Of a stretch of DNA of 63,336 nucleotides, positions 7,527 to 63,336 are shown in pieces. Every line of letters begins with the position of its first letter. The stretch's first letter is position 1. The notes under the pieces are model-generated. The model was not told the DNA's origin, searched no databases, and saw only the letters and a program-made list of their open reading frames with translations. Source of the DNA: Acidobacteriota bacterium (lineage in GTDB: Bacteria; Actinomycetota; Acidimicrobiia; Spongiisociales; UBA5794); assembly GCA_022562055.1 (NCBI GenBank), contig JADFQA010000017.1, positions 1 through 63,336 of the forward strand, read 5' to 3'. A program made the translations under genes and the position numbers.

Positions 7527-8213
7527 TCACCGGGTCCGCAGGTGTCGCGGCAAGTGTTCCACATCGTTAAAGGTACGGAGAGAAAACACGTGCCCGCCAG
7601 CAAGCGGAATGGCTCGAACTCGGGCCATTGAGCAGTGCCCGAGGACGAATCGTTCCCACTCCCACGGTGTCGGTTCGAGACCGAGCAGCCAACCGAGCGC
7701 CACCGCGTTGGTGCCACCGTGAGCAACGATCACGATTCTTTTCGCTTGCGAATCCACATGCCAAAGGTGCGGACGACCGCGTGAATCCTGTGTGATGCCC
7801 CGCTGGTTTAGTACATCAAGCATTGCGGTGGTAATTCGGTGATGGAAGTCGCCGAAGCTTTCGCCGCCATCAAGCCCGTCCCACCATTGGTCAGGGTCCC
7901 TATCCCGCGCCTCGCTAAAGATCTGCATGACCTTTTCCTCCGGCACACCGTCCCAGTCGGGCCTCTTGATCTCGGTGAGGTCATGAACGGTGATCGGCGT
8001 CACCTGGGTTGCTTCCGCCAGCGGGGTCGCGGTCTGTTGTGCCCGCAGGGCGGGTGACACGAGAATCTCCAACATGGGTGAGTCCTCGCTGGCGAGGCGC
8101 TGGGCAGCGAGCCGTGCTTGCTCGGTACCGCGTTCGGTGAGATTGGGATTCGCCTGGCTGATCCCCCCAACGGACCACGCGGGTTCGCCGTGCCGCAAGA
8201 ACACGATCTCCAC
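7527..8213 (-). CDS. Histidine phosphatase family protein
   Basis: The 228-residue protein begins with the RHGEP phosphohistidine motif (Arg7, His8) and carries the downstream acidic region and a second catalytic His in IVAHGGTNAVALGWLL, as in the phosphoglycerate mutase-like branch 1 phosphatases. The substrate cannot be read from the sequence; relatives hydrolyse sugar phosphates, phosphoglycolate-type esters or cofactor precursors. It starts two bases after the stop of the upstream membrane-protein gene, so the two form a minus-strand operon. It converges with the prenyl synthase gene, their stops only two bases apart, leaving no room for a separate terminator. Confidence 0.88.
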   Translation of the reverse strand: MEIVFLRHGEPAWSVGGISQANPNLTERGTEQARLAAQRLASEDSPMLEILVSPALRAQQTATPLAEATQVTPITVHDLTEIKRPDWDGVPEEKVMQIFSEARDRDPDQWWDGLDGGESFGDFHHRITTAMLDVLNQRGITQDSRGRPHLWHVDSQAKRIVIVAHGGTNAVALGWLLGLEPTPWEWERFVLGHCSMARVRAIPLAGGHVFSLRTFNDVEHLPRHLRTR

Positions 8214-8794: not shown

Positions 8795-8942
8795 GCGACG
8801 ATCCTAGCGCTGCTGGTAGTAATGGTCGTCAAGGGTAAGGTCGCGAAAAACGTCCTTACGTTTCTGGAAAACCCTTAAGGATCTACAAATATGGTCGATA
8901 ACACCTTCAGACAGGATGCCTTCCTACCTCCCGTCTAAGCCC

Positions 8943-52143: not shown

Positions 52144-52581
52144 ATGGTCGAAAGCAGCATCTTTGACGATCGGATTACATCCTTTGGCCGCCTCATCGAG
52201 GTCAGAGCGCGACTCGACCGCGAGTTTGGGCGGTCGCTGGAGGAGGCTCATGGCCTTTTGCAGACGTGGTTCGAGGTGCTTCTCCGTATCGGAAGAGCCG
52301 GGGAAGCGCGACTCAAGATGTGCGACCTAGCCAATGAAATTGCTCTCACCACCGGCGGAGTAACTCGGTTAATCGATAGAATTGTCGAGGCGGGTTACGT
52401 TCAACGAACGCCATCGGATTCGGATCGTCGGGTGTTGTATCTGGAACTCACGGAATCGGGTCACGACATCCTCGAGGCCGCATGCCGCACCCATCTCAAG
52501 GATCTAGACGAGCAGATGTTTTCACGTCTCACCCGTCGCGAGGCTCAGCAACTCGACTCGCTGTTGGAGAAACTGCGCTGA
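52144..52581 (+). CDS. MarR-family transcriptional regulator
   Basis: The 145-residue protein has the MarR winged helix: LLQTWFEVLLRIGRAG, RLKMCDLANEIALTTGGVTRLIDRIVEAGYV as recognition region and the wing SDSDRRVLYLELTESGHD. It is divergent from the yceI-VOC operon, with candidate operators in between, so it most likely represses that operon and itself. Ligands of such regulators are usually phenolic or lipophilic. Confidence 0.93.
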   Translation: MVESSIFDDRITSFGRLIEVRARLDREFGRSLEEAHGLLQTWFEVLLRIGRAGEARLKMCDLANEIALTTGGVTRLIDRIVEAGYVQRTPSDSDRRVLYLELTESGHDILEAACRTHLKDLDEQMFSRLTRREAQQLDSLLEKLR

Positions 52582-52771
52582 ACCGGCGGTAGCACGGTCG
52601 GCGGACCGTGTTGCTAGATGATGTGATCGTCCATGCCGGAGATCTGACGCAAGAGGTCCGTTCGGTCGGTGTGACACGTTCCGGGTCAGTGCAACACCGA
52701 GTCTCGGCAAGCAGGAGTATGGCCTGCTGCCTAATTCACATAGTTGATGTTGACAGCGCTCGGAACAGCGC

Positions 52772-52921: not shown

Positions 52922-53632
52922 CTAGGATCTCAGCAGCAGTTCTTCAGCGCTACGACCCAGCACCCATTCGAGGTCTTCATCGGGGAGTCCGCACCGTTGT
53001 ACCTTGAGCAGCTCGACGACCGAGTCGTGAAACGGGGTGTCGGAACCAAACAGGACCCGCTCGCGGCCCACACGTTCAACAGCTTCAACAATCTTCGTGG
53101 GCATTGGCATGCCTGATGTCTCGAGATAGACATTGGAATTGCGCTCCGCAACGTCGATCGCGGCGTTTATGTAGATAATGTTGCCGTGACCCATATGTCC
53201 GAGAATGACGGGCACGTCAGGGAACTCCACCACAAGCTCTTCGATACTCCACGGCAAGGTAAATATGGGGTGTCCACAATGAATGAGAACCGCTCCGCCC
53301 TGGTCCCGGACTACCTCCATGATGGGGTGAACGAGCGGATCGTTGGGGTGGTATCCATCGAGCAGGGGATGGAGTTTCACACCGACGAAGTCCTCAGAGG
53401 CGAGAAACCGCGAACACTCAGCAACAACATTTTCCATCCTGGGGTTAGCCCAGTAGAGAGCGTGCACAGTCCCGATCGAGTCGACGGTACGCTGGACAAG
53501 GTCGTTGTCGGGATGAAACACCACCCCGCCGTCGATTCCCGCATCGCGCATGACGACACCAAGACCAGGACCGTCTAAAGATACGCCGAACATGGGGAAG
53601 TCCCCTACATGCATGTGTGCGTCGAAAATCAT
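52922..53632 (-). CDS. Amidohydrolase (TIM-barrel metal hydrolase, COG2159-like)
   Basis: The 236-residue protein has the metal motif DAHMHVGD (His6, His8), VGVKLHP, VLIHCGHP, VILGHMGHGN and the final FGSDTP aspartate, as in the ACMSD/amidohydrolase_2 group. These enzymes hydrolyse or decarboxylate ring-cleavage products and cyclic amides. It lies 39 bases after the lipoprotein at the end of the BMP transporter operon, so it may act on the imported compound or its breakdown product. Confidence 0.88.
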   Translation of the reverse strand: MIFDAHMHVGDFPMFGVSLDGPGLGVVMRDAGIDGGVVFHPDNDLVQRTVDSIGTVHALYWANPRMENVVAECSRFLASEDFVGVKLHPLLDGYHPNDPLVHPIMEVVRDQGGAVLIHCGHPIFTLPWSIEELVVEFPDVPVILGHMGHGNIIYINAAIDVAERNSNVYLETSGMPMPTKIVEAVERVGRERVLFGSDTPFHDSVVELLKVQRCGLPDEDLEWVLGRSAEELLLRS

Positions 53633-53671
53633 TTTCTATTTCCCTTCGTGGCTGAGTGACTCAGGCGTTGC

Positions 53672-54634
53672 TTAACCCCGCAAGTCGCTGCCCGTTTCGC
53701 CCAGTGGAGGTACCTGAAAGACGAGAGTCGGTTGCGAGGCAACAGAAAGCGACGGCAGGATGAGTCTTACTCCTTGTTCCGAGAGGCCATGGTCATCAAA
53801 TGTGATGAGGAACGGCGCTACATCCTCTGGTCCGGGAGGACCCACTTCGGAGAAGGACGTTTCTACATCCCGCGATCCGTCATTGGGCACGAGGCGAGCG
53901 TCACGCAATGCCCACCGATCCACTCCAGCCCTAGTGATCTCGCCTGCGATCATGTAGCGACCAAGCGAAGATCGTACGACTGCGACGATACGCACTGCGC
54001 CGCTATCAGTCCCAACTGGTTCAACGCTGTCGCCAGGAACGACGAGGTTGGAAATCCATGTACCGTTCCGTTGAAAATCAACCAATTGAAACTGCAAATT
54101 GGAGTTCAGTTCCATCACGAACTGGTCAAATGTTGTCCGGTTTGCCTGGCCAGACCCTGTGCTGCGGTCTTCTGTAATCTCAGCCTCGAACAACACTTCT
54201 GAGGCACGCTGACCGTCGGCAACGCGAGGCACTTGTTGCAAGATCACTTCCTCCATGGGGTGCTGCCCGCTGACCGCTTCCATCACGCTCATGAACTCAG
54301 CGAACACTCTCGCAGCGCCTGTCGAGACAGAAAGCATCGCATCCGCAGAGTCTGACCCAAAGAAGGTCTGAAGAACTTCAGTGGCTGCTCTCTCAGCTGG
54401 ATCATCGCTCTTCGGGGCTTCGTCAACCCGGCGCGCCAGCCACCACCGGGGCGATACTTCTCGGGCTGCATCCGGATACACGCGAGTGTCTCGAGATATT
54501 GTCTGCGTCGATACGGTCAGAGGGGCAGTGGCGCCGTTCGCTTTCGTGGCGCAACCGGTTGCGATTACAGCCGTGGCGAGAGCCAACAAGGTCAGAATTC
54601 CTCGGTTTATGCGCCTGGATCGGGCTTTCGTCAC
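53672..54634 (-). CDS. Lipoprotein in the BMP transporter operon
   Basis: The 320-residue protein starts at GTG 54634, overlapping the permease stop by four bases with GGGGAG upstream. A lipoprotein signal (ILTLLALATAVIATGC) is followed by a soluble domain of about 290 residues: WWLARRVDEAP, MSVMEAVSGQHPMEEVILQ and SSLGRYMIAGEITRAGVDRW. I do not recognise the family. Tight coupling to the importer suggests an accessory surface component; a standard BMP system has none. Confidence 0.75.
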   Translation of the reverse strand: MTKARSRRINRGILTLLALATAVIATGCATKANGATAPLTVSTQTISRDTRVYPDAAREVSPRWWLARRVDEAPKSDDPAERAATEVLQTFFGSDSADAMLSVSTGAARVFAEFMSVMEAVSGQHPMEEVILQQVPRVADGQRASEVLFEAEITEDRSTGSGQANRTTFDQFVMELNSNLQFQLVDFQRNGTWISNLVVPGDSVEPVGTDSGAVRIVAVVRSSLGRYMIAGEITRAGVDRWALRDARLVPNDGSRDVETSFSEVGPPGPEDVAPFLITFDDHGLSEQGVRLILPSLSVASQPTLVFQVPPLGETGSDLRG

Positions 54635-55554
54635 CGTTCTCCCCTCACATACGGTACAGCGAGCGATTTGGGCAGGTAATCGTTGCGACCGAAGAGTGCT
54701 AGTGCGACAAGCACCACAACGAATGGCAAGCTGTTGACGATCTCCGGTCGGACATCGATGCCGAAGAGTTGGAGTGCTGTCGTCGCGGCCGTGGCGAATC
54801 CGAAGAGCAGTGCGCCTGCCGCGAGCCACACTGGACGTCCTCTGGCGAGCATCGCGAGAACGAGAGCCATGAATCCTCGCCCACCTGTCATGAATGGGAT
54901 GAAGTTACCGGAACTGATCAGCGAAAGATATGCCCCGCCCAAGCCGGCGAACACACCCGCACCGGTTGCAGCTAGAGATCGAACGAGAACAACATTGACA
55001 CCTGCTGTATCAACAGCCTCCGGCAATTCACCCGTTGCGCGGATCGCTAAGCCCCACGGAGTCTTTTGGAGCATCCAGCCAGCAAGCAGAATAGCTAGAA
55101 GCGTTAGATAGACCATATACGGTTCCCCAAAAACGACTCGACCAACTACCGGAATGTCGGACAGCCATGGGATGTACACGGTCGCCGGCTTGCCGAGCCT
55201 CGGATAGGTGTCGGCGAACAAAGCTGCATGCAGCAGACTTGTCAGACCCTCGGCGCCCAGCAGGACGCCGATACCCACAACAATCTGATCGAGGCCCCAT
55301 CGCACGGACAGGACCACCATCACAAGAGATGCCGCCGCGCCGGCGACCGCTCCCCCGAGGAAGCCCAACCATATCGAATCAGTGGCGACGGCGACGGCGA
55401 AGCCACCAAATGCCCCCATCAGCATCATTCCTTCAAGCCCGACGTTGAGTACTCCGGCGCGCTCTGATACAAGTTCTCCGATACCTGCCAGCATCAACGG
55501 AATTGCTGCTGCAACGGCACCAACCAGTAACGCGGTTATCAGGGTTTCACTCAT
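54631..55554 (-). CDS. BMP-type ABC importer permease, second
   Basis: The 307-residue permease has about eight helices and the branched-chain-type membrane signature with AGIGELVSERAGVLNVGLEGMMLMGAF, TGELPEAVDTAGVNVVLVRSLA and GRGFMALVLAMLARGRPVW. It matches the NupQ/YufQ (COG1079) permeases of nucleoside importers. It overlaps its partner permease by eight bases and the lipoprotein gene by four. Confidence 0.93.
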   Translation of the reverse strand: MSETLITALLVGAVAAAIPLMLAGIGELVSERAGVLNVGLEGMMLMGAFGGFAVAVATDSIWLGFLGGAVAGAAASLVMVVLSVRWGLDQIVVGIGVLLGAEGLTSLLHAALFADTYPRLGKPATVYIPWLSDIPVVGRVVFGEPYMVYLTLLAILLAGWMLQKTPWGLAIRATGELPEAVDTAGVNVVLVRSLAATGAGVFAGLGGAYLSLISSGNFIPFMTGGRGFMALVLAMLARGRPVWLAAGALLFGFATAATTALQLFGIDVRPEIVNSLPFVVVLVALALFGRNDYLPKSLAVPYVRGER

Positions 55555-56758
55555 CGCTTAAACCTCCCTTGGGGAGGAGTCGGTCTGACATTGCGTTCCA
55601 CACGGATCGATCGCCCCGAACTTGTTTCGCTTCGAAGTACTCAGCGACAGTCATGAACAGCAGAACGAGCGCGACTATGAGCAAGCCGAAATCGTTGGGT
55701 AGGCCTGCATTGCGGGTCGCTAGCTCGCCGCCAATGGAGAGCACCGATAACAAGAACACCAACGCAATCGTCGCCCACCCATTCATCCGCGCAAGGAATA
55801 CAAGCGGTACCACGACCAGACCAAAGGCAGGGTTCCAACCCGCCCGCACGAACCCTTGCACACCGAGCACCTCTACACCACCCGCCAACCCCATCAGCAT
55901 TCCACTCACAAGGAAAGTCACAACGATCAGTTTGGGGACCTTTAAACCCGAATGGTGCGCTGCCTTCACGTTAGCGCCGAGTACTTTCAATTTGAGGCCG
56001 AAGGATGTGCGGGTGATCATGAGGTGTACGGCAATGACGGCGACAAGTCCTACGACAACCCCTAAGTGCACCCGTGTACCAAACAGTGTCGGTAAACGAT
56101 CGGATACATCCAAGACCCTGGTACGAGGGATTTGCAGGCCCTGTTCATCGGTGAGGAACACGACTTTGACGAGAAGACTGGCAAAGTTGACACCGATACT
56201 GCTCATCATCAATGTCGTAATGATCTCGTTGATCCCGTACCGGGCCTTCATCATGGCGGGGACAATCGTCCACACGGCGCCGACGGCTGCTGCCAACATG
56301 AGCAGGAGAACCAACATGAGACTGCGTGGTATCGCATCAGACACGGTAGCTGCGAGACCGCCTGCCAGGGCAGCGCCGAGCAAGAATTGACCGTCGACGC
56401 CAAGGTTCCAAATGCCAGCACTGAACGACACGATGAGTCCCGCAGCGATGATGAGCAGAGGTGCCATACGAATCAGGGTTTCCTGAAGCCCCGAAGGGCT
56501 GATGATTCCTCTGTGAATGATGGTGCCGTAGAACGCGATCGGGTCCTCGCCGAGTATGAGGATCAAAAGCCCACCGACGAGCGTGGCCGCGAGGAGAGGC
56601 AGGACGGCGAGCGCCATGGCGCTCCGGATCTTTTCCTTCCGGCCTAAACCATGTGACTGCGCTGTAGTGCCTCCCGACTGGCGGGAGTTTCCTCCCCGAC
56701 CATCCCCGCCGACGCTCCCCCCTGTGGGTTCGGTCGGTGTAAGGTCTGAAGCTCTCAC
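55547..56758 (-). CDS. BMP-type ABC importer permease, first
   Basis: The 403-residue permease belongs to the NupP/YufP group (COG4603): an N-terminal Gly/Ser-rich cytoplasmic tail of about 40 residues, helices from LAVLPLLAATLVGGLLILILG, the SFSAGIWNLGVDGQFLLGA signature and GANVKAAHHSGLKVPKLI. It pairs with the following permease to form the channel. It overlaps the ATPase gene by four bases. Confidence 0.93.
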   Translation of the reverse strand: MRASDLTPTEPTGGSVGGDGRGGNSRQSGGTTAQSHGLGRKEKIRSAMALAVLPLLAATLVGGLLILILGEDPIAFYGTIIHRGIISPSGLQETLIRMAPLLIIAAGLIVSFSAGIWNLGVDGQFLLGAALAGGLAATVSDAIPRSLMLVLLLMLAAAVGAVWTIVPAMMKARYGINEIITTLMMSSIGVNFASLLVKVVFLTDEQGLQIPRTRVLDVSDRLPTLFGTRVHLGVVVGLVAVIAVHLMITRTSFGLKLKVLGANVKAAHHSGLKVPKLIVVTFLVSGMLMGLAGGVEVLGVQGFVRAGWNPAFGLVVVPLVFLARMNGWATIALVFLLSVLSIGGELATRNAGLPNDFGLLIVALVLLFMTVAEYFEAKQVRGDRSVWNAMSDRLLPKGGLSDE

Positions 56759-58386
56759 GACACGGCCGTGCCGACCATGAGGTCCCCGATGCGTCGCTCT
56801 GCGCCGGGCCGATTCTCGACGATCCCCACAACGCGGCCCTTCATGAGGACTGCGACACGGTCACAGAGATCGAGGAGCTCCTCGAGGTGACTCGAGATGA
56901 TGACCGCACTCACACCTTCGGCGGCCATCTGGCGGATTCGCTCGCGAACCATCAACATCGTTCGAACGTCGAGTCCGTGTGTCGGCTTGTTGTAAATAAT
57001 AATCCGCGGACCGGACGTCGTGTCGCGGGCGAGGATCACCTTTTGGATGTTGCCACCAGACAGCTTGCTGATGTTCGTTTCGGTGTTGGGCAACCGAATA
57101 TCGAAGTCCTTAACCGCTGACTCGGCGTTGCGTTGAATCTCCGCTGCTTGGATGATGCGTCGCTTCCAAAAGGGAGCGTCACCGATCCTCTTGAGGACCA
57201 GGTTGATCGATACGCTCATCGACGCAACTGTCGCCTCGCCCCTTCGGTCATCGCTCAAGTAGCGCAGACCCAGCTGTCCACGCGAGTAAACGTCCAAGCG
57301 GTCAATCCGTCGGAAATACCCATCATGAAGCAGTTGTATCTCACCATTGTCCAGCCTGCGTTGACCGGCTAATACCTCGGCAAGTTCAGTCTGGCCATTA
57401 CCGGCGACACCCGCTATGCCAAGGATTTCGCCCTCTGCGATCGTCAGTTCGATATCGTGGAGGCCGTGGCTGGACGGTGAAGAGTCAAGCGACACATTGA
57501 TCATCTTCAAGAGCGGCTCTCCAATCGTTCGAGTGTGCTGGTCGAGCACCTTTTCGCGAGGATGTTTCGCAGAGACATCGACATGCATCTCAGCAACATC
57601 GCTTAACTCGGTACCTTCCGATCCGAACATGATCTCAACGATTCGATCGCGTAGCCGGCTGGGGTCTTCTGATCGCAGCTCCTGTTTTTCGATCGTTCCT
57701 GCGACGCGGCCCTGCCGCAGGACGGTAATTTGATCCCCCATCTCGATCGCTTCATGAAGCATGTGGGTGATGAAAACGATTGCAAGACCGCTGGCTTTCA
57801 GTCGCCGGAACATTTTCGCAAGCTCGGTAACACCCGAAGGAGCCAACATCGATGTTGGCTCATCCAGAATGAGAGCGACTTTTCCTTTCCACAGGGCCTT
57901 AATGATTTCGATAACCTGTTGTTCATCCAGAGCAAGGTCCCCGGCAATGGCCGCCGGATCGATATTGGCGCCCAACAAACTCGCTAGCTCATCGAGGCGT
58001 CTGAGTCCTTCGGCCTCGTCGAGCGTCATGCCTTTGGTGTTCCCCAAGATGAGGTTTTCGAGCACAGTGAGAGTTGGGACGAGGGTCGCATGCTGATACA
58101 CGGTTCCGATGCCGAGATCAAGCGCCTTGCGTGGAGAGTCGATCTCGGTCTCGATCCCGTTGATCAAGATGGTTCCTGCATCCGGAACAGTCATCCCGCT
58201 AAGAATGCTGATCAGCGTTGACTTACCAGCACCATTCTCGCCGAGAAGACAGTGAACCTCTCCTCTATCGATCGATAGGGAGATGTTGTCGTTCGCCAGG
58301 ACGCCGGGGTATCGCTTCGTGATACCGATGAGGTTGATCAGGGAGGAGTCCGAGTTCCCGCTGGGGTTCGTTGATTCCACATCCAT
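56755..58386 (-). CDS. BMP-type ABC importer ATPase with two ATP-binding domains
   Basis: The 543-residue protein has two fused ATPase domains like RbsA/NupO (COG3845). Domain 1 has Walker A GENGAGKST (49-57) and Walker B KVALILDEPTSML. Domain 2 begins near residue 290; its Walker A is the usual degenerate AGVAGNGQTEL, with signature KLSGGNIQKVILARD and H-loop IISSHLEELLDL. It energises uptake with the two permeases. A hairpin lies upstream between it and the binding-protein gene. Confidence 0.94.
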   Translation of the reverse strand: MDVESTNPSGNSDSSLINLIGITKRYPGVLANDNISLSIDRGEVHCLLGENGAGKSTLISILSGMTVPDAGTILINGIETEIDSPRKALDLGIGTVYQHATLVPTLTVLENLILGNTKGMTLDEAEGLRRLDELASLLGANIDPAAIAGDLALDEQQVIEIIKALWKGKVALILDEPTSMLAPSGVTELAKMFRRLKASGLAIVFITHMLHEAIEMGDQITVLRQGRVAGTIEKQELRSEDPSRLRDRIVEIMFGSEGTELSDVAEMHVDVSAKHPREKVLDQHTRTIGEPLLKMINVSLDSSPSSHGLHDIELTIAEGEILGIAGVAGNGQTELAEVLAGQRRLDNGEIQLLHDGYFRRIDRLDVYSRGQLGLRYLSDDRRGEATVASMSVSINLVLKRIGDAPFWKRRIIQAAEIQRNAESAVKDFDIRLPNTETNISKLSGGNIQKVILARDTTSGPRIIIYNKPTHGLDVRTMLMVRERIRQMAAEGVSAVIISSHLEELLDLCDRVAVLMKGRVVGIVENRPGAERRIGDLMVGTAVS

Positions 58387-58449
58387 GTGGCAGTTCTCCT
58401 ACGATATTTGGTCGACTACCTGTCGCGGGACGCGCTTTAGAATATAGGA

Positions 58450-58474
58450 ACCCGGCACCCACGTGGCGCCGGGT
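58450..58474 (-). terminator. Intra-operon hairpin between binding protein and ATPase genes
   Basis: ACCCGGC (58450-58456) pairs with GCCGGGT (58468-58474), with inner CAC/GTG pairing, and on the minus strand it is followed by TTCCTATATTCT. It lies 26 bases after the binding-protein stop. Such partial terminators let the binding protein be made in excess of the membrane components. Confidence 0.7.
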
Positions 58475-58499
58475 CCCACTCACTACTCGTCCTATGTCG

Positions 58500-59606
58500 C
58501 TATCCGCAACCGATGAGTTCCTCGATCTCGGCGCGGGTCTCAGCGGCGGGCACCGAGATTGAGCCGTCTACAACTCCAGCTTTTGCCGTTTCAAGCGTAG
58601 TCCACAACTCGTCGGAGATGTTTTCTGTCTGGAGAAGAGCAATGCCACCTGTTGCCAAGTTCAGATCGTAGTTGTGGTCGCCGAACGTCCCGGCTTCGAC
58701 ATCCCTGATCGCCTGTAGGTAGGTCGGCCCGAAGTCCCACAGTATTGACGACAGCAGAACATTCTCGTCGTCAACTGATGTTTTATCACCGATCACATCG
58801 ATGAACCAGACTTTGTCCGCCCCTGCAGGTGCGTCAGCTGTCTCGACCGCACGGATCATGCCGAACGATGAGCCATCTCCGTTGCCCAAGATCACATCGG
58901 CGCCACCGGCGATGATGCTCTCGGTCACTCGCGCACCGCCTTCGACGTCGCCGTACGCCGCTTCACCAATCTGAACGAGGAGAACCTCGATGTTCGGGTT
59001 GATGGAGCATGCGCCTGCAACGAATCCACCAGAATGCCTAGCCCAGTTGAAGTCGTCGGCTGAAATGACGATTCCGAGAGTTCCCGTCATCGTCGTCTCT
59101 GCTGCGAGGATACCTGCTAGATACCCTCCCTCCTCGGCGCTCGTGCCTACGAACGCGGCGACGCCGGACTCCAAGGCATCGGGCGAGCTGTACACAACGA
59201 CCCGTACACCGGTCTCGAGAGCGACTTCCTTTGCCGCGTCCCCGAATCCAGACGCGTGTGCGAAGATGAGGTCAGCCGTTTCTGCAAGTTGTCTAAGGGT
59301 TTGTGTTGGAGCGTCGTAGCCCAGTCCACCGGCTATCTCAATATCTATTCCTGCTGCCGTCGCCGCGGCCTGGGCACCCTCTACTCCCTGCTGGTTCCAG
59401 CCGAAATCGACTGGTTCCTCTGGCGTGGCTACAGCCACCTTCAAGACTGTCGTGGCTGGTGCTGCGACTGTCGTGGCTGGTGCGGCTTCGGCGGTTGTCG
59501 TCGTGTCAGCTGTGCTGCCGCAAGCCGCTCCAACGACAGCGAAAACAACGAGAACAACGAAGCCAGGCAGCCGTGCTCGTCCTCTGATCCCAGTTCGTCT
59601 ACCCAT
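58500..59606 (-). CDS. BMP-family substrate-binding lipoprotein
   Basis: The 368-residue protein has a lipoprotein signal (GFVVLVVFAVVGAAC, Cys29), a Thr/Ala linker and a BMP/PnrA-like periplasmic-binding domain: VDFGWNQQGVEGAQAAA, LIFAHASGFGDAAKEVALE, VAAFVGTSAEEGGYLAGILAA and VWFIDVIGDKTSVDDENVLLSS. Known members bind purine nucleosides or related rings. ATG 59606 is preceded by GAGGAAGAGG. It is first of the importer genes, with a clear promoter and operator upstream. Confidence 0.93.
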   Translation of the reverse strand: MGRRTGIRGRARLPGFVVLVVFAVVGAACGSTADTTTTAEAAPATTVAAPATTVLKVAVATPEEPVDFGWNQQGVEGAQAAATAAGIDIEIAGGLGYDAPTQTLRQLAETADLIFAHASGFGDAAKEVALETGVRVVVYSSPDALESGVAAFVGTSAEEGGYLAGILAAETTMTGTLGIVISADDFNWARHSGGFVAGACSINPNIEVLLVQIGEAAYGDVEGGARVTESIIAGGADVILGNGDGSSFGMIRAVETADAPAGADKVWFIDVIGDKTSVDDENVLLSSILWDFGPTYLQAIRDVEAGTFGDHNYDLNLATGGIALLQTENISDELWTTLETAKAGVVDGSISVPAAETRAEIEELIGCG

Positions 59607-59688
59607 TGTCCTCTTCCTCTCGTTCGCCCAAACCGACAACCGGACCCGGTTTCCCGTTCCCCGCTCTCTCGGCCCTCATGCCTGCGGA

Positions 59689-59725
59689 ATGATATCCCAT
59701 CTCATGTTGACAGTCAACAGCTAGC
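59689..59725 (-). promoter_or_regulatory. Promoter with overlapping operator for the BMP importer
   Basis: On the minus strand TTGACT (59712-59717), a 17-base spacer and TATCAT (59689-59694) make a near-consensus housekeeping promoter. The -35 lies inside a perfect 7-1-7 dyad TGTTGACAGTCAACA (59705-59719). The flanking CAGTCAACAGCTAGC (59711-59725) recurs almost exactly upstream of the transaminase gene. The dyad resembles GntR-type (FadR subfamily) operators; the regulator itself is not in the window. Confidence 0.75.
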
Positions 59726-59748
59726 ACAGAGTGAACATGAAGCGCGTA

Positions 59749-60783
59749 TCAGGAACAGTTCAGGATCACCTTTGTCGCCGACCGAGAATCAAAAAGCTCG
59801 TAACCGTGCGCGGCGTCTTCCAACGGCATGCGATGACTTAGCACCACTGTCGGATCAAGAACGCCCTTCATCATTAGGTCAAGAAGTCGAACTCGGTCGT
59901 TGAACGGATCACCGATGGTGAAGACAAGCGAGATTTCGCGCTCGAACATATGGCCGTTATCGAGTGGGTAGTCTGGTTCAAAATGCGCGCCAACCACTGA
60001 CACGACGCCGCGGCCGCGCACAAGTCCGAGAGCCTGTGTCAGCCCTGCGGGACTTCCCGCAGCCTCCACGACCACATCTGCGCCGAGACCGCTGGTGAGT
60101 TCGTCTACTAGTGTCGACGATCCCTCAGGCGCAACTGCCTTGGCCCCCAGTTGCTTGGCTAAATCTCTTCGCTCGGGAATCGTGTCAACTGCGATCACGC
60201 TCGCGGCCAGCCTCACGGCGCACATCACTGCCATGAGTCCGACTGGCCCACAGCCGATGATCACCACAACGTCTCCAAGGCTGGTGCCTGCTCGCTTCAG
60301 AGCGCCGAATCCCGTTGGGAGCACATCCGCGAGGAAGACCGCAGCCTCATCTGATACAGCATCCGGCAGGGACATCAGTACGCGGTCTGCTTCAGGAACC
60401 CGGACGAACTCGGCTTGGCCGCCGTCGAGCCTGGGATACACCCCCGAATACCCGAAGAGGCTTCGACTGCTGCACTGGGATGGCCGACCAGCAAGACAAT
60501 GATCGCAGATACCGTCTGAGATTGTGCTGGTAGCAACCACCCGCTGTCCGAGCTTGACTCGATCCACCGAAGTGCCGATCTCCACGACCTCACCGACGAA
60601 TTCGTGGCCTAGAACTGTCCCGTTCTCGAAGCCGGGCGTGAACCCGTGGAATGGGAGGAGATCAGCTCCGCAAATCGCACTCTTGCTTATCCGCACGATT
60701 GCATCGCGCGGATCAATTATCTCGGGATCGGGCACGGACAGGACCTGTACGTCCCCCGGTTCTACTAGGACAACCGCTCTCAT
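59749..60783 (-). CDS. Zinc-dependent alcohol dehydrogenase in the transaminase/importer cluster
   Basis: The 344-residue MDR enzyme shows catalytic-zinc motifs SAICGADLLPFHG and GHEFVGE, a structural-zinc-like loop GICDHCLAGRPSQC, and a nucleotide motif VVIIGCGPVGLMAVM. It resembles threonine/sorbitol/glutathione-independent aldehyde-forming dehydrogenases. Placed between a pyridoxamine-pyruvate transaminase-like gene and the importer, it might oxidise an alcohol group of the imported compound (for example a pyridoxine-type hydroxymethyl), which is speculative. ATG 60783 has AAGGAG upstream. Confidence 0.9.
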   Translation of the reverse strand: MRAVVLVEPGDVQVLSVPDPEIIDPRDAIVRISKSAICGADLLPFHGFTPGFENGTVLGHEFVGEVVEIGTSVDRVKLGQRVVATSTISDGICDHCLAGRPSQCSSRSLFGYSGVYPRLDGGQAEFVRVPEADRVLMSLPDAVSDEAAVFLADVLPTGFGALKRAGTSLGDVVVIIGCGPVGLMAVMCAVRLAASVIAVDTIPERRDLAKQLGAKAVAPEGSSTLVDELTSGLGADVVVEAAGSPAGLTQALGLVRGRGVVSVVGAHFEPDYPLDNGHMFEREISLVFTIGDPFNDRVRLLDLMMKGVLDPTVVLSHRMPLEDAAHGYELFDSRSATKVILNCS

Positions 60784-60909
60784 TCGGACGGCTCCTTCTT
60801 CATTCGTCGAAACACTCATCCGCACACACGTCGAAGCCGACACCCCAGACTTTCAGGGGAGTCTCAGCCCCAACGTGCGGTAGTCGAGATTGTGGTTACC
60901 GCGTCAAAA

Positions 60910-62079
60910 TCACAGATTTGGTGTCGCACTCAGTGCTTGCATTGCGACTTCGATTCCCTGACCGATGTCGACCTCGCACCCGAGGTCTCGCAGGCCCTGC
61001 CCGAGGGCAGATAGTCCAATGATGGGGTGGAGGCTTCGCGCGGTCTCTCCCATGTGGCCGATCCTCACGAGGTTGCCCGCACCGAGGGCTCCAGAGATCA
61101 TGACTCCGTACCGTTCGCGAATATGATCACGTACTTGGACGTCGGTGAGACCTTCGGGCAGCTTCACCGCGGTTACCGAGTTTGCAGCTGTCCGAGAATC
61201 CGACGGCCAGAGTTCGAGGCCCATGGCTACCACACCCGCGCGGCATGCCGCAGCTGTGGCGGCGTGGCGCGCAATGGCCGCTTCAACACCTTCCTCGAGG
61301 ATCTGTTCACATGCTGCGATAACCCCGTTCACGTCCGACACTGAGGGGGTGTAGGGGTATTTGTCCCCTTCGAGCCATTTCGTCTTCCAATCGAGAATCG
61401 AGAGGAAAGAATCGTGCGGAGCATTCGGATTCTTGGCGATGAGATCCCAACCCGCCTGACTCACCGCGATTAGCGACATGCCGCTAGGCCCCCCAAGGCA
61501 CTTCTGGGGCGCTGAAATACAGATGTCAAGGCCCCATTCGTCCGGGTGAAGTTCAACGCCGCCAAGAGAAGCGACTACATCGATAAGCGACACAATGTCG
61601 TGCCTGCGACAGATCTCACCGATCTGTTTCAACGGAGACACGGTGCCGCACGGGGTCTCGACATGAACGACCGTGAGAAGTTCGACGTCGGGGTGAGCGG
61701 CCGCAACTTCTTCGATCATCTCTGGTGCTGGGACCTCACGGAATCCTGTCTCGATCTCGATGACCTCCGCTCCGTGACCAGCGAGCCAGTAACCCATTCC
61801 CTTGCCGTAGGGACCGTTCGCCAGGTTGATTACCTTCATTCCGGGCCGAACGACTCCCACGACAGCCGCTTCAAGCCCGAGGACGGCCTCGCCCTGCATG
61901 AGAATAATGTCGTTTTCAGTTCCGTACACCTGTCCGACTAGATCTCCGAGCATCCGGAAACGCTCGAGAAAAGCGGGATCGTAGTGATACGAAACAGGTG
62001 ATCCCTGCGCCGCTAGAACGCGGGCCGATACCGTGGTGGGTCCTGCCGCGAGCGTAAAAGCGGGGGGACTGGTGGACAT
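60910..62079 (-). CDS. Pyridoxamine-pyruvate transaminase-like class V aminotransferase
   Basis: The 389-residue fold-type I enzyme resembles Mesorhizobium loti pyridoxamine-pyruvate transaminase along its length, from memory of that sequence: AAGPTTVSARVL, QGEAVLGLEAA, NLANGPYGKGMGYW, HVETPCGTVSPL, SAPQKCLGGPSGMSL, PYTPSVSDVNG and RIGHMGETA. Glu64, Lys193 and Arg339 align with Glu68, Lys197 and Arg345 of that enzyme; ordinary alanine- or serine-glyoxylate aminotransferases lack the equivalent Glu. It would convert pyridoxamine plus pyruvate to pyridoxal plus alanine. ATG 62079 follows AAGGAGG. A ureidoglycine-glyoxylate aminotransferase is the main alternative. Confidence 0.82.
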   Translation of the reverse strand: MSTSPPAFTLAAGPTTVSARVLAAQGSPVSYHYDPAFLERFRMLGDLVGQVYGTENDIILMQGEAVLGLEAAVVGVVRPGMKVINLANGPYGKGMGYWLAGHGAEVIEIETGFREVPAPEMIEEVAAAHPDVELLTVVHVETPCGTVSPLKQIGEICRRHDIVSLIDVVASLGGVELHPDEWGLDICISAPQKCLGGPSGMSLIAVSQAGWDLIAKNPNAPHDSFLSILDWKTKWLEGDKYPYTPSVSDVNGVIAACEQILEEGVEAAIARHAATAAACRAGVVAMGLELWPSDSRTAANSVTAVKLPEGLTDVQVRDHIRERYGVMISGALGAGNLVRIGHMGETARSLHPIIGLSALGQGLRDLGCEVDIGQGIEVAMQALSATPNL

Positions 62080-62174
62080 GGGCTTCCTCCTTGTCGCATG
62101 AATTTACGATGTCAAGCATGAATGGACGGGAACTAAAAAGGCTCCTCCTCCACCTCCACCGTAGAGGGAGTACT

Positions 62175-62194
62175 GTCAACAGTCAACAGCTAAC
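62175..62194 (-). promoter_or_regulatory. Operator upstream of the transaminase gene
   Basis: GTCAACA occurs as a tandem pair (62175-62181, 62182-62188), and CAGTCAACAGCTAAC (62180-62194) matches the importer operator at 59711-59725 in 14 of 15 bases. On the minus strand it again supplies TTGACT, 17 bases from a weaker -10 (TACGGT). The 62080-62291 gap holds nothing else of note. Confidence 0.65.
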
Positions 62195-62291
62195 GAGGGG
62201 TGGGAGGGCAACGAGGGCGTGTACTTCCGGCGGCCGGCAGCCTGGAGGCTGTCCGCGACGGCGCCACTCTCTGTGGTGGCCGGACGGGGCC

Positions 62292-62885
62292 TCACCGCTT
62301 ACGAAACACCAACCACGCAATGAGCAGTCCCGTTGCGGCGATCACCACGGGGATCACTCGGGTTAGGAGGGGGCGGGCCATGGCAGAGCCGAGATCAAGA
62401 TACTCCTTACTTTCCGGTGGCTCCGTCTCGCGAGTTTCCTCACCACCGGACAGCTCCGACTGGAGTCGATCTGCGAATTGATTGATTATCTTCTCAGCGA
62501 CATCCTGAATGAGTCCCCTTCCCATTTGGGCCGGTCGCCCTGTGATAGCAAGTTCGGTTGCGACGTTCACGATGGTCCCACCGGCGTCTCTCACAAGAGT
62601 GGCAACAACTGTCGCTTTTGCGGTTCCCCCACCCCGTCTGTCCTTTGCTGACCCCTCGATAACCATCCGTCGAAGCAGTGCATCTTGCTCAACAACGCTG
62701 GCTAAACCTTCATATTGGATTTTCATGGGTCCTAAACGCACCGTGATGGATCCCACGAGCTCGTCTCCGCGTACCTCGTGTAGTTCGGCACCGGGCATAC
62801 AACGGGCGACCATTGGGAAGTCCGTAAGAGCATCCCATGCCTGATCGATCGACGCCGCGATTCGAAAACTATTCGATAAATTCAT
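62292..62885 (-). CDS. CoxG-like SRPBCC protein with C-terminal membrane anchor
   Basis: The 197-residue protein has a CoxG/SRPBCC domain: NSFRIAASIDQAWDALTDFPMVARCMPGAEL, YEGLASVVEQD and GRGLIQDVAEKIINQFADRL. After a charged linker it ends in a helix (VIPVVIAATGLLIAWLVF) and a basic tip, as in CoxG, which tethers CO dehydrogenase-type molybdenum hydroxylases to the membrane. ATG 62885 has CAGGAG upstream. It sits 34 bases after the FAD-subunit gene. Confidence 0.9.
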   Translation of the reverse strand: MNLSNSFRIAASIDQAWDALTDFPMVARCMPGAELHEVRGDELVGSITVRLGPMKIQYEGLASVVEQDALLRRMVIEGSAKDRRGGGTAKATVVATLVRDAGGTIVNVATELAITGRPAQMGRGLIQDVAEKIINQFADRLQSELSGGEETRETEPPESKEYLDLGSAMARPLLTRVIPVVIAATGLLIAWLVFRKR

Positions 62886-62919
62886 TTCGGGTCTCCTGAT
62901 TGACCGCTTCGTTCCCCGC

Positions 62920-63336
62920 TCATGTACCTGCACTCGATCCGAGCGCCTGACCGAGACATTGCACCACTGCTCTTCCGACGAGGACACCCGCAAGGTGACG
63001 TTTGTACTCGACTGATCCGTGCAAATTGTCGATCGGTTCGACGCTGGCTTCAACGGCCGCTACAGCTTCAGCGACCGCTGACTCGAGGGAGTCCCGCCCA
63101 ACCCCGATAAGTGTTGCTTCCGCTTCCGCGATCCTTATCGGGACAGAGCCCACTGAACCCACGGCAATCTTCACGTCGATCGCTCGGCCTGCCTTCGCAG
63201 TGCCTGCCACCGTCACGGTCACCGCGGGACGCTCCTGAAAACGAATCCGCTCGTGGACAACGAAGGTTCCAGCGGCAAGAGCAGGGACGACAATCGTCTC
63301 TATCAACTCAGCATCACCGAGCGTCGTTTGATATGC
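62920..63336 (-). CDS. FAD-binding subunit of a molybdenum hydroxylase (C-terminal part, runs off the edge)
   Basis: The frame is open to the window edge and encodes AELIETIVVPALAAGTFVVHERIRFQERPA and the CO dehydrogenase flavoprotein C-terminal domain (VKIAVGSVGSVPIRIAEAEATLIG, VEYKRHLAGVLVGRAVVQCL). This is the medium subunit of the xanthine dehydrogenase/CO dehydrogenase/aldehyde oxidase family; the FAD-binding N-terminal domain is outside. The large Mo and 2Fe-2S subunits should lie next to it beyond the edge. Hydroxylation of an N-heterocycle or aldehyde is the likely chemistry. Confidence 0.88.
   Translation of the reverse strand, partial: AYQTTLGDAELIETIVVPALAAGTFVVHERIRFQERPAVTVTVAGTAKAGRAIDVKIAVGSVGSVPIRIAEAEATLIGVGRDSLESAVAEAVAAVEASVEPIDNLHGSVEYKRHLAGVLVGRAVVQCLGQALGSSAGT

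Follow-up and report, generated by a model that had tools for sequence, protein, structure and literature searches.

A probable vitamin B6 catabolic island with a candidate molybdenum-hydroxylase ring-opening module

The gene cluster and its two contigs

The window analyzed here is a DNA stretch of 63,336 nucleotides, contig C17 of a 97%-complete bacterial genome (83 contigs, 2.93 Mb). At 52922-63336 it contains ten co-oriented minus-strand genes, spaced by -8 to 212 bp (a negative value being an overlap), which form part of a candidate cluster for the uptake and breakdown of vitamin B6. The genes were confirmed at these coordinates, and the Pfam domains across them (Amidohydro_2, two BPD_transp_2, a double ABC ATPase, Bmp, ADH_N/ADH_zinc_N, Aminotran_5, COXG, and CO_deh_flav_C) agree with the families listed in the original prediction, which was made from the sequence alone. 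The contig terminates at 63336 inside the gene for the FAD subunit of a molybdenum hydroxylase, so only a C-terminal fragment of this subunit is present. Three reference loci (L003, L005, and L008) come from other genomes and have transaminases 81-86% identical to the C17 copy. L003 and L005 contain all ten genes in identical order (52-90% identity), and L008 keeps the first nine of the ten in order, up to the point where its contig data stop. Since the order recurs in all three loci, the ten-gene arrangement is not a product of chance.

Features of C17:
62920..63336 (-), FAD subunit of the molybdenum hydroxylase, C-terminal 138 aa; PF03450 E 1e-15; 68-71% identity to the C-terminus of the complete L003/L005/L008 subunits
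62292..62885 (-), CoxG-like protein with a C-terminal membrane anchor; PF06240 E 3e-19; 63-71% identity in L003/L005/L008
60910..62079 (-), pyridoxamine-pyruvate transaminase (PPAT); NF046070, 2Z9U match, tree, E64/K193/R339
59749..60783 (-), zinc alcohol dehydrogenase; PF08240/PF00107; 81-85% identity in L003/L005/L008, 59% in genome G218
58500..59606 (-), BMP/PnrA-type binding lipoprotein of a putative B6 importer; NF047927, PF02608
56755..58386 (-), ATP-binding cassette (ABC) ATPase of the putative B6 importer; NF047930
55547..56758 (-), permease 2 of the putative B6 importer; NF047929
54631..55554 (-), permease 1 of the putative B6 importer; NF047928
53672..54637 (-), lipoprotein with lipobox VIATGC; 52% identity in L003/L005/L008
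52922..53632 (-), Amidohydro_2 family hydrolase or decarboxylase; PF04909 E 6e-25
52177..52673 (+), marR and the sequence after it, one copy of a 497-bp direct repeat; other copy C53:9640-10135

The CoxG-like protein probably helps the molybdenum hydroxylase to mature, or tethers it. The lipoprotein at 53672..54637 has no Pfam or NCBIfam match and is conserved only in close relatives of the cluster (~52% identity).

The operons of L003, L005, and L008 extend 8 kb further upstream than C17. A DNA search located this upstream half on contig C53 of the same genome, where the match reaches base 2 of the contig. C53 and the region of L005 syntenic with it share 80% DNA identity. On L005 coordinates, C53 ends near 7908 and C17 begins near 8859, and the ~950 bp missing between them carry most of the FAD subunit. 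C17 and C53 therefore appear to hold the two halves of one operon. The assembled cluster spans ~21 kb, of which the C17 genes form the second half; it would be transcribed from the ten C53 genes, with the GntR/FCD regulator first, across the gap to the genes from FAD subunit to amidohydrolase on C17. The original prediction had directed attention beyond 63336 for the remaining subunits of the molybdenum enzyme, and both the Mo and the 2Fe-2S subunit lie on C53, together with B6-pathway genes.

Features of C53 (locus L018):
C53 8691-9560 (-), GntR/FCD regulator
C53 7455-8468 (-), luciferase-like monooxygenase (LLM)-class oxidoreductase
C53 6414-7439 (-), M29/NicX-like protein
C53 6025-6402 (-), cupin
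C53 5267-6025 (-), class II aldolase-like protein
C53 4806-5264 (-), 2Fe-2S subunit of the molybdenum hydroxylase
C53 2464-4809 (-), Mo subunit of the molybdenum hydroxylase
C53 1550-2485 (-), 5-formyl-3-hydroxy-2-methylpyridine-4-carboxylate (FHMPC) dehydrogenase; NF042925, 408 bits
C53 791-1546 (-), 4-pyridoxolactonase; NCBIfam, 400 bits
C53 7-741 (-), pyridoxal 4-dehydrogenase, a short-chain dehydrogenase/reductase (SDR); NCBIfam, 376 bits

Upper B6 pathway and putative importer

In the canonical route of B6 breakdown, the FAD oxygenase MHPCO opens 3-hydroxy-2-methylpyridine-5-carboxylate (HMPC), and AAMS hydrolase cuts the product. The present cluster resembles degradation pathway I of Mesorhizobium loti and Pseudomonas MA-1 in its homologues of PPAT, the SDR pyridoxal 4-dehydrogenase, 4-pyridoxolactonase, and FHMPC dehydrogenase, and probably also in a decarboxylase of the class II aldolase type.

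The transaminase reaches 399.5 bits against NF046070, with the runner-up family at 171; the cut-off is 600, so the score lies below equivalog level. Among PDB structures it matches M. loti PPAT (2Z9U) at E 3e-96, compared with E 2e-44 for PucG. In the phylogenetic tree, which carries a long-branch warning, it groups in a clade with M. loti PPAT, outside the PucG/AGXT-like sequences (support 100/99), as the original prediction would have it. The transaminase also carries E64, K193, and R339, the residues proposed earlier as the mark of PPAT. They are present but less diagnostic than assumed: in the alignment, PucG shares K193 and R339 and departs only at position 64, where it has T, and an MHPCO-linked paralogue has His in place of R339. 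This second, divergent PPAT paralogue adjoins MHPCO in Microbacteriaceae RYN_86 (L040 5836-6996) and may have another substrate.

The enzymes encoded on C53 extend this assignment. Pyridoxal 4-dehydrogenase and 4-pyridoxolactonase both pass their NCBIfam cut-offs of 325 bits. FHMPC dehydrogenase stays under its cut-off of 500 and leads other families by 220 bits; the best PDB match of its L008 orthologue is 4OM8, the solved FHMPC dehydrogenase (E 3e-95). The cluster contains no GMC-type pyridoxine oxidase and no 4-pyridoxate dehydrogenase of the pathway I type. The zinc alcohol dehydrogenase is a candidate for the 4-pyridoxate (or pyridoxine) dehydrogenase, its substrate being inferred. G758, G218, and the Microbacteriaceae of the MHPCO type have amidohydrolase homologues (56-60% identity) in their clusters; because MHPCO-type clusters also contain the enzyme, it is not specific to the new module.

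The four importer subunits match NF047927-NF047930, the NCBIfam models of a "putative B6 ABC transporter", in which B6 transport itself is only putative. Two of the four exceed the curated cut-offs, namely the ATPase (NF047930, 673.3 bits, cut-off 670) and permease 2 (NF047929, 449 bits, cut-off 400). The binding protein (NF047927, 384.6 bits, cut-off 400, E 3e-115) and permease 1 (NF047928, 379 bits, cut-off 465, E 1e-113) score below them. Neither the origin of these models nor any B6-specific BMP-type importer was found in the open-access literature searched. In the B6 cluster of G218, an NMT1/THI5-like ABC binding protein (L039 15870-17480) lies beside the BMP-type importer and could represent a second importer, one that handles a related ring.

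Purine or ureide catabolism, which the original prediction had kept as its alternative, is rejected for this cluster as very improbable. Purine pathways do include importers of the BMP type and class V transaminases resembling PucG, but here the transaminase lies outside the PucG/AGXT-like sequences, the importer matches the B6 models, the neighboring genes encode B6-pathway enzymes, and the cluster shows no urate or allantoin gene. The proposal of B6 vitamer uptake and oxidation, in turn, is strongly supported by the family and tree of the transaminase, the importer models, and the C53 enzymes. We conclude that the cluster is very probably a vitamin B6 catabolic island. Its BMP-type ABC importer would take up B6 vitamers. 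By homology, PPAT would convert pyridoxamine to pyridoxal, the SDR pyridoxal 4-dehydrogenase would yield 4-pyridoxolactone, and the metallo-beta-lactamase-fold lactonase would yield 4-pyridoxate. A dehydrogenase, perhaps the zinc enzyme, would then oxidize the 5-hydroxymethyl group of 4-pyridoxate to give FHMPC, which FHMPC dehydrogenase, again by homology, would turn into the dicarboxylate 3-hydroxy-2-methylpyridine-4,5-dicarboxylate (HMPDC). Removal of one carboxylate from HMPDC by the class II aldolase-like protein, giving HMPC, is a likely but weaker step.

A candidate ring-opening module

A direct search of the source genome did not find MHPCO; of its five PF01494 matches, the one of full length is geranylgeranyl-reductase-like. 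AAMS hydrolase is absent from the cluster, to which the search for it was confined. A distant MHPCO-like gene in G235 (39%) was set aside, with no B6 genes around it. Relative to pathway I, the cluster is thus without MHPCO and AAMS hydrolase, and adds a block of molybdenum-hydroxylase, LLM, M29/NicX-like, and cupin genes as well as a dedicated ABC importer. The earlier idea of a route unlike the known SDR/FAD pathways stands at the ring-opening step, where the FAD oxygenase is missing; it does not stand for the steps above, as an SDR and a lactonase are part of the same operon.

The reverse gene content is found in Lacisediminihabitans profunda (L004 and L037) and Microbacteriaceae RYN_86 (L006 and L040). 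Like the C17/C53 cluster, both have the importer, PPAT, pyridoxal 4-dehydrogenase, lactonase, FHMPC dehydrogenase, and amidohydrolase. In contrast to it, they possess MHPCO, which matches 3ALJ at E 7e-124, and AAMS hydrolase, which matches 3KXP at E 1.5e-57, and the neighborhoods examined contain none of the molybdenum, LLM, NicX-like, or cupin genes of the block.

The conserved block itself comprises LLM, M29-like protein, cupin, class II aldolase-like protein, 2Fe-2S subunit, and Mo subunit; in the source genome the FAD subunit and CoxG accompany it. It adjoins or interleaves with B6 genes in G758, G218, L007 (Solirubrobacteraceae), and G145 (on two contigs), at ~48-81% protein identity, and in G758 the block and the B6 genes, from BMP to amidohydrolase, form one operon. 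Among 396 genomes of the phylum, the NicX-like protein occurs in three, and PPAT-grade scores (429-719 bits; next best 321) occur in the identical three. If the two were independent, this coincidence would have a probability of ~1e-7, a value not corrected for shared ancestry. We favor, with reserve, the reading that a molybdenum-hydroxylase ring-opening module replaces MHPCO in this cluster.

The molybdenum hydroxylase is of the xanthine-oxidase type, with Mo, 2Fe-2S, and FAD subunits all present, the last partial in the source genome owing to the contig gap. The nearest solved Mo subunits are those of 4-hydroxybenzoyl-CoA reductase (1RM6), a nicotine-pathway ring hydroxylase (7DQX), and quinoline oxidoreductase (1T3Q), the latter two being N-heterocycle hydroxylases. 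Judging from these relatives, the enzyme would most likely hydroxylate C6 of HMPC, the site suggested because no other carbon adjoining the ring nitrogen is unsubstituted; together with CoxG it would yield a dihydroxypyridine or pyridone. The enzyme could instead, in line with the original prediction, be an aldehyde oxidase that makes 4-pyridoxate or HMPDC, with the ring opened elsewhere, as aldehyde oxidases belong to the same family and the best NCBIfam score of the FAD subunit is to the glyceraldehyde dehydrogenase beta subunit. We consider this rather unlikely: the aldehyde steps are already covered by pyridoxal 4-dehydrogenase with the lactonase and by FHMPC dehydrogenase, the Mo genes go with the ring-opening block, and the examined clusters having MHPCO lack them, and ring hydroxylases are among the nearest solved Mo subunits. 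A role of the molybdenum enzyme in oxidizing pyridoxal was likewise judged unlikely, dedicated enzymes being present.

In the favored module, MHPCO has no part in opening the ring; this task would fall to three proteins conserved together, the LLM oxidoreductase, the M29/NicX-like metalloprotein, and the cupin. Two schemes of ring opening are considered, one NicX-like and one reductive-hydrolytic, with no firm preference for either. A PDB search with the profile of the M29-like protein ranks NicX first (E 2e-5), and an hhalign comparison of the two covers 296 columns (probability 98.4, E 7e-15). The iron ligands of NicX are His265, Ser302, His318, and Asp320, and the alanine mutants of His265 and Ser302 are inactive (PMC7910607). 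NicX residues His318, Asp320, and His105 correspond to H314, D316, and H110 of the M29-like protein. The cluster resembles nicotinate degradation (nic; NicX is its 2,5-dihydroxypyridine dioxygenase) in combining molybdenum-dependent ring hydroxylation with a NicX-related protein, and differs in the pyridine acted upon, in the LLM and cupin partners, and in a NicX relative without the His265 and Ser302 ligands. More remote relatives of the M29/NicX-like protein (~31%), annotated as "aminopeptidase", lie among catabolic genes in Rhodococcus and on haloarchaeal plasmids (L063 7989-8960, L065 5983-6984), which points to a broader family whose members act in catabolism and not as peptidases.

As a special case of the favored reading, C6 hydroxylation could be followed by reduction of the pyridone by an F420H2-dependent LLM enzyme and opening of the lactam by an M29-type metallohydrolase (or the amidohydrolase), by analogy with fermentative nicotinate breakdown. 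We treat this as a tentative possibility. The best NCBIfam and PDB matches of the LLM protein are F420-dependent families, but it stays under every NCBIfam cut-off. The source genome has F420 synthesis (cofE, 251 bits), but a genome search did not find FrhB. In G588 and G642, two related copies of the block (L054 227-4112, L055 1-1855) are divergent from FrhB-type F420-reducing and 2-oxoacid:ferredoxin oxidoreductase genes; these second copies may process another pyridine with F420H2. E201, E270, H294, H314, and D316 are invariant in the M29-like protein and, by motif comparison, tentatively correspond to the metal ligands of M29 aminopeptidases, not to those of NicX. An additional kind of pyridine ring opening in B6 breakdown, made up of molybdenum-dependent C6 hydroxylation, F420H2-dependent reduction, and metallohydrolase cleavage with no oxygenase, is proposed as a doubtful extension at present.

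Several observations weigh against the replacement of MHPCO by the molybdenum module, or against the reconstructed pathway that leads to it. The joining of C17 and C53 rests on synteny. The zinc alcohol dehydrogenase, proposed for the 4-pyridoxate step, is absent from the G758 and G145 clusters, which have the module. The class II aldolase-like protein matches HMPDC decarboxylase (2Z7B) at E 3e-17, and other class II aldolases are closer (E 9e-23). E270 and A296 take the places of NicX His265 and Ser302, so two of the four iron ligands are not kept; because of these differences the M29-like protein was not filed as NicX. Its AlphaFold model (pLDDT 44) is too poor for a fold search. Moreover, in G642 and on a second G588 contig, where the contigs are 10-12 kb long, the block is not accompanied by upper B6 genes, and it may therefore serve other pyridines there.

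Insertion of the island and its significance

The two copies of the 497-bp repeat flank the cluster and are 94.8% identical. In G588 and G666, the only other genomes of the genus searched, the genes yceI, marR, DinB-like, and dcd follow each other uninterrupted, and the glyoxalase gene is also in place in G588. Because these genomes show the empty site, the ~21-kb cluster is an insertion at this position, acquired perhaps by single-crossover recombination. G588 has its own cluster on a different contig.

Only two routes of bacterial B6 breakdown are described as characterized, in a source that also summarizes the pathway genes and the last step (PMC3538738), and no molybdenum-dependent or other variant route was described in the open-access literature covered by our search. 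If true, the module would constitute a third way of opening the ring and would explain the use of B6 by actinobacteria without MHPCO. The exchange of MHPCO and AAMS hydrolase for the molybdenum block makes this prediction directly testable. In addition, the cluster context strengthens the tentative B6 assignment that NCBIfam gives to the BMP-type importer, and the module would provide a function for M29/NicX-like and LLM families now annotated only as "aminopeptidase" or "luciferase-like".

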